Shown here piece after piece: positions 13,907-36,496 of a stretch of DNA of 64,000 nucleotides. Made by a program: the position numbers and the translations under genes. Within the stretch, counting starts at the first letter, position 1. Every line of letters starts with the position of its first letter. The stretch lies in the NCBI RefSeq assembly GCF_030818015.1, contig NZ_JAUSZX010000001.1, forward strand, positions 1,674,001 to 1,738,000, written 5' to 3'. The notes beneath the pieces are model-generated. The model was not told the origin of the DNA, did not search any database, and was given only the letters and a program-made list of their open reading frames with translations. This stretch comes from Arthrobacter globiformis. Lineage in GTDB: Bacteria > Actinomycetota > Actinomycetes > Actinomycetales > Micrococcaceae.

Positions 13907-16900
13907 GTGTCAACTTTGTTCGGCAGGCTGGGGCTGAGGAAACGCCGCAACAAGATCGTCACCGGAACCGTCTTTTCCGCTGCGGCTGCGGCACTGGTGG
14001 CCGGTGCTGTGATCTACCCGGGGTTCAAGACAACCGAGGTTGACCTTAACGACGGCGGCGTCTGGGTGGTCAGCAAGGCCCGCAACGCCGTCGGCCGGCT
14101 CAACTACCCCTCGCGGGTCCTTGACGGTGCCGTGACCCCGGCCAGCACCACGTTCGATGTCCTGCAGAATGCCGGCAAGGTGTTCGTCGACGACGAATCC
14201 GGCGCCACCCTGAACCAGGTGTCCGCCGCCAATATGCGGCTGGGCGGCGACAAGAGGCTTCCCGGTACGGCACAGGTGAGCTTCGGCGCCGACGTCATCT
14301 CGGTCACCGACCCTTCCGCCGGCAAGATGTGGGCCATGTCCCCGTCAACCGTTAACGCCTTCGACGAGGAGTCCAGCGAGCCCGCCGTGTCGGGATCCCC
14401 GGGTCTCGTGTCCGCCGTCGGCCCGGATGACCGGATCTACTCGGCTGATCCGAAGACGGGGCAGGTCACTGTGACCACGGTGGACGCCGCTGGGGCAGCC
14501 ACCGACACCGAGCACAGCACGTGGGACGGGCTGAAGGGCGCCGGGGACCTCCAGCTCGCCGTCGTGGGGGACCAGCCTGTGGTCCTGGATGCAGCCGCAG
14601 GAAAACTGTTCCTGCCCGGCGGGCGCGAAGTGCCGCTGGCCGACGCGCGGGAGGCGAAGCTCCAGCAGTCAGGCCCGGCGTCAGACTCCGTGGCCGTGGC
14701 CACCAGCAAAGCACTCCTCAAACAGCCGCTGAACGGATCCGCCGCGAAGACCGTGACGTTCGGTGGCCAGGGGGTGCCGGCAGCGCCGGTGCAGCTGGGC
14801 GGCTGCGTCCACGCAGCATGGTCCGGGGCGAACAAGTACGTCCGGGACTGCGCCAATGACTCGGACAACAAAAACGTGGCCGTGCCCAAAGCCAGTGCGT
14901 CGCCCCGCTACGTGTTCCGCGTCAACCGGGACGTGGTGGTTTTGAACGACGTGAACTCGGGAAACGTGTGGCTGGTCAACCAGAACATGCAGTTGGTCAA
15001 CAACTGGGACGACGTTGTCCCGTCCAAGAACCAGGCTGACGACCCCGATGAGGAGTCGGCCGACGACAACACCATCAACGTTCTGCCGGACCGCACCAAA
15101 CCGAACCGTCCCCCGGAAACGAAACCCGACGTCGTCGGCGTCCGGCCGGGGCGAACCACTGTCCTGAGCGTCCTCGACAACGACTCCGACCCCGACGGCG
15201 ACGTGCTGACCGCGTCACTCAGTGCGGAAGGCCCGCAGGCCGGCAGCATTGAAAGCATCTACGGCGGGTCCGCCTTCCAGATCACGGTACCGGCCGACGC
15301 CGCACCGGGGACAGAGACCTTCGACTACACCGCGGCGGACGGCCGCGGCCTGTCCGCCGGCGGCAAGGTAAGCCTGAGCGTCGTGGGGGCGGACGAGAAC
15401 CGGCCCCCGGCCTTCAAGCGCGGCGACCCCACCACACTCCTCGTGGAGCAGGGCAAGACGGTCAGCCAGAACATCCTCACCGACTGGGCCGATCCCGACG
15501 GCGACGACCTCGTCCTGATGTCAGCCACCGCCGACAACGAACAGGACCAGGTCAAGGTCCGCCGCGACGGTCTGCTCACGTACCAGGACTCCGGCGCCTC
15601 GGCCGGCAAGAAAAGTGTCACCGTGACCGTCTGGGACGGCCGCGCCACCACAACGGGAAAGGTGGCGGTCAACGTCCAGCCGCCGGGAGCGCTCGCTCCC
15701 GTGGTCAACGCCGACCACGTCACGGCGGTGGTGGGCCAGGACTTGGTCATCGCGCCGTTGAAGAACGACGTCGATCCCAACGGCGGCGCCTTGCGCCTCG
15801 CCCAGGTGGAAGCCAGCGGAGCTGCAGAACTGGGACCTGTCACCGACGGCGGCACCTTCACCTTCCGCAGCCGGACCCCGGGCCCGGTCTACCTGACGTA
15901 CCTCGCCAGCAATGGACCGCAAAGCAGCCAGGGCCTCATCCGGGTGGATGTGGAATCCGGCAAGGACTCGGGAAATCCCGTCGCCGTCCATGACGTGGCA
16001 CTCCTGCCGGTGGGCGGCAGCGTGCTGCTGGACCCGCTGGCCAACGACTCGGACCCCTCCGGGGGCGTCCTGGTCCTGCAGTCCGTCGCGGTGCCGGAGA
16101 ACGCCACGGCGTCGGTGAGCGTGATCGACCACAGCGTCCTGCGGATCACCGACATCGCGGGCACCAAGGACCCCTTCCTGTTCCGCTACACGATGTCCAA
16201 CGGCAAATCTTCCGCCACGGGAAGCGTCTCGGTGGTGCCTGTCCCCGCCCCGGCTGTGGTGGAGGCGCCGCAGCCCAAACCCGATGAGGTCAACGTCCGC
16301 GTCAATGACGTCGTGACCGTCCCGGTGCTGGACAATGACACCCACCCGCAGGGCGAAAAGCTGACTGTAGACCCACTCCTGCCGCAGGCCGTCCCGGCGG
16401 AGGACGGCAAGAGCTTCGTCTCGGAGAACACCCTCCGGTTCATCGCCGGGAGCCAGCCCAAGACCGTGCGCGCCATCTACAACGCGGTGGACCCGCAGGG
16501 CCAGAAGAGCGCCGCCGCCGTCACCATCCACATCCTGCCGCTGGAGGGCGCCGAAAACTCCCGCCCGCAGCCCCAAAACCTGACGGCTCGGGTGGTGGCG
16601 GCCGGCACGGTGCGCATTCCGGTGCCGCTGGACGGCATTGACCCCGACGGTGACTCCGTCCAGCTGACCGGCATCGACAGCACGCCCGGCATGGGCACCG
16701 CGACGGCGGGCAGCAACTTCATCGACTTCGTCGCGGCCGGAAACGGCGCCGGAACCGATACGTTCCGCTACAAGGTCGTGGACCGGCAGGGCGCCGTAAA
16801 CACCGGCACCGTTACCGTGGGCATCGCACCCCGCAGCGACACCAACCAGAAGCCCACTCCCGTGGACGACCAGGTCAAGGTCCGGCCCGGGCGGCAGATC

Positions 16901-35854: not shown

Positions 35855-36496
35855 ATGATCCGAATCACTCGTCTGCGGGGCGCGCTGCTGCCCGGAATTA
35901 CCGCTGCCATGCTGGCATTTACGGTTGTGGCCGGCGCCGCCGGAGCGGCCCAGGCAGCCTGCCTGCCGGAGCAACAGTGCTCTGAATCGCCGGCACCCAT
36001 CGCCCCGCCGTCGTCCGGTTCACCGGCTCCGACGAGGACGGCGGCTCCCGTCCCGACGCCTGCTCCGGCGCCGCCGGCGCGAAAGGCACCTGCCCCTGCT
36101 CCGACCCCTGTGCAGCCCGCAGCGCCGGCGGCGCCGCGCGTTGCCCCGGCACCGGCGCGACCTGCCCCCGCGCCCACCCTCACACCTTTGGCGCCGCCGG
36201 CGAATGGCGGAATGGCGCCCCCTGCGGTGCCGGCGGCACCAGCCGCGGTGGTTCCGGCCACCTCTGTCTCCTCCACCCCCGGCCCGTCGTCCTCCACCCC
36301 GGCGGCCGAGTCCAGCTGGACCAAACCGATCGCCACCCCGGTCCAAGCCAGCCAGGCCGCCGCCGTTGTAGTCGCGGACAAGGGATCCGGCCTCGGCATC
36401 TTCGGCCTGTTCGCCGTCATGGGCGGCGTCCTCCTGGTGGGTCTGGGCGGACTGGCCTTCGCCCTGTGGAGCCGGAACCGCCCCGGTCACTGGTAG
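35855..36496 (+). CDS. Exported Pro/Ala-rich protein with C-terminal membrane anchor
   Basis: A 213-residue protein of no known family. It has a signal peptide ending near AQA-A (residue 33), a small CLPEQQC pair of Cys, about 140 residues almost wholly Pro, Ala, Thr, Ser and Val, then a hydrophobic C-terminal helix (about 182-205) and a basic tail ending RNRPGHW. It could span the peptidoglycan like other Pro-rich wall linkers. It lies 88 bp after the ATPase gene in the same direction and may belong to the operon. There is no LPXTG motif. Low sequence complexity prevents a firmer call. Confidence 0.7.

Follow-up and report, generated by a model that had tools for sequence, protein, structure and literature searches.

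A PFNA-type gene set joined to an EssC-type ATPase in an Arthrobacter operon: a candidate phospho-regulated type VII system

The closest described relatives of the locus reported here, a ten-gene operon of Arthrobacter globiformis, are the PFNA cluster of bifidobacteria and the type VII secretion systems (T7SS). The PFNA cluster, in which genes for a kinase, a fibronectin type III (fn3) protein, a MoxR ATPase, a DUF58 protein and a transglutaminase-fold membrane protein (TGM) lie together in one direction, is stated to be 'unique to bifidobacteria' (PMC8430577) or 'found only in bifidobacteria' (PMC10688814) and is read in print as a sensor of host immune signals (PMC8430577, PMC10688814, PMC6803598). 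A mycobacterial moxR operon has already been likened to it (PMC12067865). Among the T7SS, the T7SSd was defined by Garrett, Higginson and Palmer (2024, PMC11217815), who reported it in Olsenella and Bifidobacterium and suggested control by phosphorylation for T7SSd and T7SSe. The words 'secretion' and 'ftsk' are absent from PMC8430577, 'type vii' and 'ftsk' from PMC10688814, and 'transglutaminase', 'fibronectin' and 'DUF58' from PMC11217815; no description of a PFNA cluster joined to a T7SS was found in the open-licence literature. The present analysis connects the PFNA literature, with its host cytokine binding and its confinement to bifidobacteria, to the 2024 survey of T7SS.

We analysed a stretch of 64,000 nucleotides of A. 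globiformis (contig NZ_JAUSZX010000001.1, positions 1,674,001 to 1,738,000; hereafter the window), which sits in a 5.09-Mb genome. At 13907–35766 of the window, the list of open reading frames and Pfam confirm an operon of ten same-strand genes that holds the complete PFNA set and ends in an ATPase of the EccC/EssC type, a general mark of T7SS. The gene content and its linkage recur in relatives, as do the domain make-up of the ATPase and its motifs, and many relatives carry WXG100-like genes beside it. From these observations we infer secretion, its gating, and the roles of the giant fn3 protein and of MoxR and DUF58. With modest confidence, we favour the reading that the operon encodes a phospho-regulated type VII machine, with WXG100 proteins as its cargo and the giant protein as a part of its envelope portion. 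This kind of type VII machine is not described in the papers that we found.

Layout of the operon and its EssC-type motor

Every gene of the operon lies where a first-pass annotation, made from the sequence alone, had placed it. The listed open reading frames begin too early for several genes, the likely starts being 27094 for the FHA protein, 30605 for the FHA-like protein, 31306 for EssC and 35855 for the Pro-rich protein. The features are as follows (TM, transmembrane segment).

13907..20011, + strand: giant surface protein, 2034 residues (Pfam, hydropathy, sequence)
20075..21046, + strand: MoxR AAA+ ATPase (Pfam AAA_3, 9.5e-63)
21048..22388, + strand: DUF58 protein with two TMs (Pfam, hydropathy; alternative start 21012)
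22385..24826, + strand: TGM, with Asp instead of the catalytic Cys (Pfam, alignment)
24823..26232, + strand: zinc-ribbon/RDD membrane protein with a C-terminal FHA-type motif (Pfam RDD; FHA motif by eye)
26229..27107, + strand: PP2C phosphatase (Pfam, motifs)
27094..28884, + strand: FHA protein with a long low-complexity middle and a C-terminal FHA domain (sequence; Pfam FHA 20.1 bits, just missing the cut-off of 20.7)
28881..30536, + strand: Ser/Thr kinase with a cytoplasmic kinase domain, one TM (residues 419–437) and an outside domain (Pfam, hydropathy)
30605..31309, + strand: FHA-like protein with a degenerate FHA motif (by eye) and a conserved C-terminal half; no Pfam match
31306..35766, + strand: EssC-type type VII ATPase with ubiquitin-like, FHA, TM and ATPase domains
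31306..31575, + strand: ubiquitin-like domain of EssC, residues 1–90 (PDB profile search, AlphaFold2 secondary structure)
31624..31920, + strand: FHA domain of EssC, residues 107–205, phosphothreonine-type motif intact (Pfam, motif, AlphaFold2, fold search)
35855..36496, + strand: protein with signal peptide, Pro-rich region and TM, at the slot of the WXG100-like gene in many relatives

Four-base ATGA or GTGA overlaps, which the annotation had described for most junctions, occur at five of the nine (DUF58/TGM, TGM/RDD, RDD/PP2C, FHA/kinase and FHA-like/EssC). The other four comprise a 14-base overlap (PP2C/FHA) and gaps of 1 base (MoxR/DUF58, if DUF58 begins at GTG 21048; ATG 21012 is also open), 63 bases (giant/MoxR) and 68 bases (kinase/FHA-like). 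A promoter and terminator scan 5' of the giant gene returned weak sites only. Downstream of EssC, the window continues with the Pro-rich TM protein and then ligA.

The ATPase had been called EccC-like. It is indeed a type VII-type motor, with YukB and EccC5 among its solved-structure relatives, and its best NCBIfam model is that of EssC (TIGR03928, 528 bits). Since this score lies under the equivalog cut-off of 778, the protein is a relative of the named EssC rather than EssC itself; we write EssC for short. In a tree of 57 EssC-like proteins, the clade of the window protein comprises 29 rows with SH-aLRT support of 100, and within the genus the protein is 80–97% identical with its motifs kept. 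The FHA motif (GR, S-x-x-H, N/H-G) is intact in all 29 clade members, compared with 13 of 28 EssC-like proteins outside the clade, a group that includes short proteins and ones without the N-terminus. The nearest solved folds to this FHA domain are OdhI, GarA and FhaA, and FHA domains filled the matches in fold searches with residues 1–225. For comparison, FHA2 of Staphylococcus aureus EssC recruits EssB (PMC9436818).

Residues 1–90 look ubiquitin-like. A PDB search with a 25-sequence profile of the EssC N-terminus placed a redesigned ubiquitin at the top (E 0.0021), followed by three SAMP1 entries, with ISG15 lower; 5 of the 11 matches (E up to 10) are ubiquitin-fold by name. AlphaFold2 predicts the order strand-strand-helix-strand-strand-short helix-strand, with block pLDDT values of 77–90. 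Weak Pfam matches to ubiquitin folds appear in a few of 28 clade members (TmoB 3, UBXL 3, YukD 1), and a sub-threshold YukD match falls on the EssC N-terminus of one relative (G414). The ubiquitin-like profile matches all 29 clade proteins, partly by construction because it was made from clade members, and several other lineages weakly. A YukD domain fused to a 12-TM protein has been reported in actinobacteria, a fusion unlike that of EssC (PMC1779556).

Another EccC/EssC-like gene of the same genome (G000:C1:3498099-3502268) also encodes a canonical FHA motif and lies beside a WhiB-like gene. No WXG100 gene was seen in the 20 kb around it (L127); an 82-residue 'WxG' gene nearby is WhiB-like by eye and was thus not taken as WXG100.

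Linkage of the two parts and WXG100-like genes in relatives

Gene calls on the fetched genomes are our own. The closest named TGM loci belong to Arthrobacter, with a TGM of A. globiformis at 95%; at the A. globiformis locus L215, the available portion of EssC shows 97% identity to that of the window. The Micrococcaceae sample consists of the best 80 of 580 confirmed TGM relatives, all from Arthrobacter, Pseudarthrobacter, Paenarthrobacter or Sinomonas. EssC stands directly behind the FHA-like gene in 76 of the 77 loci that reach that gene, Paenarthrobacter DKR-5 being the sole exception, and the long FHA protein was matched in 63 of the 80.

An order-wide survey covered 297 genomes, with EssC counted at ≥840 bits and regarded as near when within 25 kb of a TGM match. 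Among the matches listed, 48 of 87 EssC are near TGM, and these are spread over 10 families; all 48 lie on the strand of TGM, which is upstream in 47. By a rough calculation from rough averages, about 1 of the 74 cases with both genes would be expected by chance. Other EssC lineages show the linkage in 3 of 25 listed cases (G257, G645 and G634) against 0.36 expected, and short EssC-like ATPases of ~1000 residues, without N-terminal domains, end a second giant-MoxR-DUF58-TGM set in G225 (L125) and G268 (L124). On the EssC tree, at least four changes between the linked and unlinked states are required. Sets of giant, MoxR, DUF58 and TGM are present in fetched loci of several of the 10 linked families and in Micrococcaceae, and 21 of 28 fetched loci have the giant gene on the same strand at a distance of no more than 30 kb; these loci were hand-picked from ranked lists, so this count and the one for WXG100-like genes below are not population rates. 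The published confinement of PFNA to bifidobacteria therefore does not hold.

The annotation had likened the first part of the operon to PFNA, and a Bifidobacterium-type locus (L286, G664) bears this out: it carries kinase-giant-MoxR-DUF58-TGM-PP2C in this order, each protein matching its window counterpart at 115–397 bits. Every organism-named protein among 120 listed homologues of its TGM comes from Bifidobacterium. No EssC was found in 20 kb at this locus, nor any match to the FHA-like protein.

WXG100 proteins are the usual cargo of type VII systems. Our calls of WXG100-like genes came from our own iterated profile, and 10 of the proteins were compared with Pfam: nine match PF06013 at E≤0.01, and five of them reach or exceed the cut-off, with one tie. 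PF06013 misses some of these proteins, such as that of the same-genus relative G568, which has no match at E≤0.01 and only a weak match to T7SS_signal. Of 26 fetched clade loci with ≥2 kb available behind EssC, 21 have a WXG100-like gene ≤3 kb downstream of EssC and on its strand. The five loci without one are those of G008, G097, G343, G460 and G605, of which G343 and G605 do have such a gene slightly further off or upstream. Micrococcaceae relatives with a WXG100-like gene by EssC include G430, G614, G656 and G636, as well as G568. Next to EssC, none was found in the window, G008, G540, G554, G470 or G415; at 35701–37200 of the window nothing matches our profile, and there is no PF06013 match near EssC. 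Since the gene is not adjacent in the lineage of the window, its cargo would be encoded elsewhere or be different. As a separate observation, WXG100-like genes behind EssC are repeated identically in G401 (L241, 3597–4543) and G640 (L239).

Several observations weigh against the proposed machine. The two parts of the operon are not always together: of the 74 EssC matches for which a TGM place is listed, 26 lie apart from TGM, 10 being far off on the same contig and 16 on another contig, the latter perhaps partly reflecting fragmented assemblies. A further 13 of the 87 have no TGM among the matches listed, which is not proof of its absence. Conversely, 44 genomes have a TGM at ≥250 bits and no EssC at ≥840 bits among the matches listed, and these may carry a divergent EssC, as G257 does. 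The PFNA part occurs without this EssC at L286 and in DKR-5, where the genes that follow it are unrelated (by eye, resembling V-type ATP synthase) and the genome contains no orthologue of EssC, the best match being 29%. In Sinomonas mesophila (L225), EssC is in place and the giant gene has been relocated, lying not beside MoxR but elsewhere (G682:C8:171520, L231). From DKR-5 and S. mesophila, it follows that each half exists without the other as its neighbour. In addition, the only WXG100 protein of the window genome over the Pfam cut-off is encoded at C1:1151803, far from EssC, with two more below the cut-off. Finally, known envelope parts of other T7SS were not found beside this EssC in 18 genomes: EssB/YukC (PF10140) matched in 0 of 18, and among T7SSa partners EccB exceeded its cut-off in 2 and YukD-type proteins in 3, but neither occurs beside this EssC or in the window genome. 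The pore of the proposed machine would thus have to be formed by other parts.

The main rival explanation is that a single transcript carries two distinct envelope modules that do not make up one machine, with PFNA serving kinase-controlled wall or surface assembly and EssC with WXG100 forming an ordinary small type VII system. The halves are apart in several families and at the Bifidobacterium-type locus, and in G268, G316 and G504 EssC and its WXG100-like neighbours are separated from the giant (an FHA-like gene is nearby in G316). However, the conserved order over 10 families on a single strand, the linkage of other EssC lineages, and the retention of the FHA motif in all clade proteins, linked or unlinked, count against it, and we consider this explanation rather unlikely. 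It is also conceivable that the motor no longer takes part in secretion in the lineage of the window and now serves the PFNA complex as an ATPase with a signalling or structural function. The six loci without a WXG100-like gene by EssC and the distant WXG100 gene of this genome would fit such a loss, but EssC is intact and conserved within the genus and G568 still has its WXG100-like gene at EssC, which makes the loss improbable. We retain the reading of a phospho-regulated type VII machine.

Phosphorylation genes, the giant protein and a proposed mechanism

The operon carries a kinase, a phosphatase and FHA proteins, as the annotation had described, and intact motifs are found for the kinase, the phosphatase and FHA domains of the phosphothreonine type. 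Motifs are complete in 29 of 30 kinases and in 28 of 29 PP2C proteins, and a C-terminal FHA motif is present in 26 of 29 genes directly upstream of the kinase. The fn3 domain previously assigned to the kinase did not reappear, as Pfam at 1e-3 shows none in this protein. The FHA motif of the FHA-like protein is degenerate in 29 of 29; the family has 4240 homologues, with no Pfam domain in any of 120 listed. By eye, its conserved C-terminal half may be a helix-turn-helix.

The TGM matches the transglutaminase fold, as proposed earlier, and lacks the catalytic cysteine of an active enzyme. At the position that we take to be catalytic, from the known fold and from Cys-bearing controls, Cys occurs in 0 of 37 PFNA-type TGM proteins, compared with 6 of 8 low-scoring control TGM-like proteins in the alignment. 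The site reads GDDEQYA in all 80 Micrococcaceae loci, and Ser occupies the position in all 120 listed homologues of the Bifidobacterium-type TGM. If this holds, the PFNA 'transglutaminase' would be unable to cross-link proteins by the usual chemistry.

The giant protein comprises an N-terminal membrane anchor (residues 17–35), a propeller-like region recognised by eye, 10 Big_9 Ig stretches and three fn3 stretches, the best of which spans residues 1474–1552 (Pfam). All 30 giants whose N-terminus is complete have the anchor, 29 directly and that of G208 after its start was moved upstream; the other four of the 34 are truncated where the fetched DNA ends. Hydropathy indicates a C-terminal TM in 0 of 34. 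Because it has its own anchor, the giant should, to judge from its sequence, need only the general insertion route. This bears on the idea, put forward by the first-pass annotation, that the motor exports or assembles the giant. A shared operon with conserved order is consistent with it, but the giant is anchored by itself and retained where this EssC is absent, and EssC has WXG100-like genes beside it. Routine separation of the ATPase and Fn3 genes, which that annotation took as counting against its proposal, was found in part, in the 26 EssC of 74 that are not near TGM and in DKR-5. We consider such export very improbable and rejected it as the main interpretation, on the grounds of the anchor, the WXG100-like neighbours and the occurrence of the parts on their own.

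These features lead us to propose the following mechanism. EssC would act as the motor, with small WXG100 helical-hairpin proteins as its likely cargo. The membrane kinase would phosphorylate threonines on itself or on its partners, and the FHA domain of EssC, together with the two other intact FHA proteins, would dock on these phosphothreonines. PP2C would reverse the phosphorylation, so that assembly or activity of the motor could be gated; such gating is plausible. The giant would be inserted via the general (Sec) route and serve as an envelope-spanning or surface part, while MoxR, DUF58 and the transglutaminase-fold pseudoenzyme may act as assembly factors. Gating of type VII secretion by phosphorylation would be testable in soil strains, since the kinase, the phosphatase, three intact FHA readers and the motor belong to one operon.

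A broader proposal, which we put forward tentatively and with less than even confidence, is that PFNA represents, within an ancient type VII system of actinobacteria gated by phosphothreonine, the half responsible for envelope and control, rather than a bifidobacterial invention for sensing host immunity. Bifidobacteria, in some of which a separate T7SSd has been reported (PMC11217815), would have lost the linked motor and kept this half. The ubiquitin-like protein, which T7SSd are reported to lack, may be present as a fused N-terminal part of such motors. If the proposal is correct, the FN3 giant, a fragment of which binds TNF-alpha in vitro, is kin to a part of a secretion machine of soil bacteria.

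Comparison with known systems

The PFNA cluster of Bifidobacterium shares with the window the kinase, the giant FN3 protein, MoxR, DUF58, TGM, PP2C and FHA. The giants are similar in size, with 1994 residues and FN3 domains at 1494–1581 and 1586–1671 in Bifidobacterium longum (PMC10688814) against 2034 residues here. L286 differs by placing the kinase first and by having no EssC and no FHA-like match.

The T7SSd resembles the window operon in its FHA-bearing EssC-type ATPase with a conserved phosphothreonine motif, its membrane kinase, its large Ig-like protein, its WXG100 proteins, which the window shares through its relatives, and the lack of a separate ubiquitin-like protein (PMC11217815). 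By description, the one-TM kinase of the window can be set beside the membrane kinase TsdD (PMC11217815), whereas the Pro-rich TM protein is unlike the small TM protein TsdH. The window operon adds MoxR, DUF58, TGM, RDD-FHA, PP2C and FHA proteins. TsdI is described as having a signal at its N-terminus and a TM at its C-terminus (PMC11217815), and the giant has no such C-terminal segment. A T7SSd-like locus in G523 (L287, 1220–15000) encodes a 1796-residue Ig-like protein, an EssC-like ATPase, an FHA protein and a T7SS_signal-domain protein; a protein of the TsdI description stands directly before EssC. This TsdI-like protein matches in 3 of 22 genomes and in 0 of the 18 with the window's EssC clade. 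The G523 EssC falls outside the window clade, but it lacks a canonical FHA motif itself and may thus not be a typical TsdC. Because the giant does not correspond to TsdI, we do not file the window system as a T7SSd.

The T7SSe of Bacillota has a kinase, a PPM phosphatase, a separate FHA protein, a large Ig-like protein and an FHA-bearing ATPase, as in the window, but belongs to another phylum and has a separate ubiquitin-like protein (PMC11217815). The T7SSb shares the EssC-type motor and has a kinase-fold membrane protein (EssB) and a large surface protein (EsaA) as partners; its EssC begins with two FHA domains, whereas that of the window begins with a ubiquitin-like and an FHA domain. In this comparison, the giant protein would fill the slot of TsdI in T7SSd and of EsaA in T7SSb.

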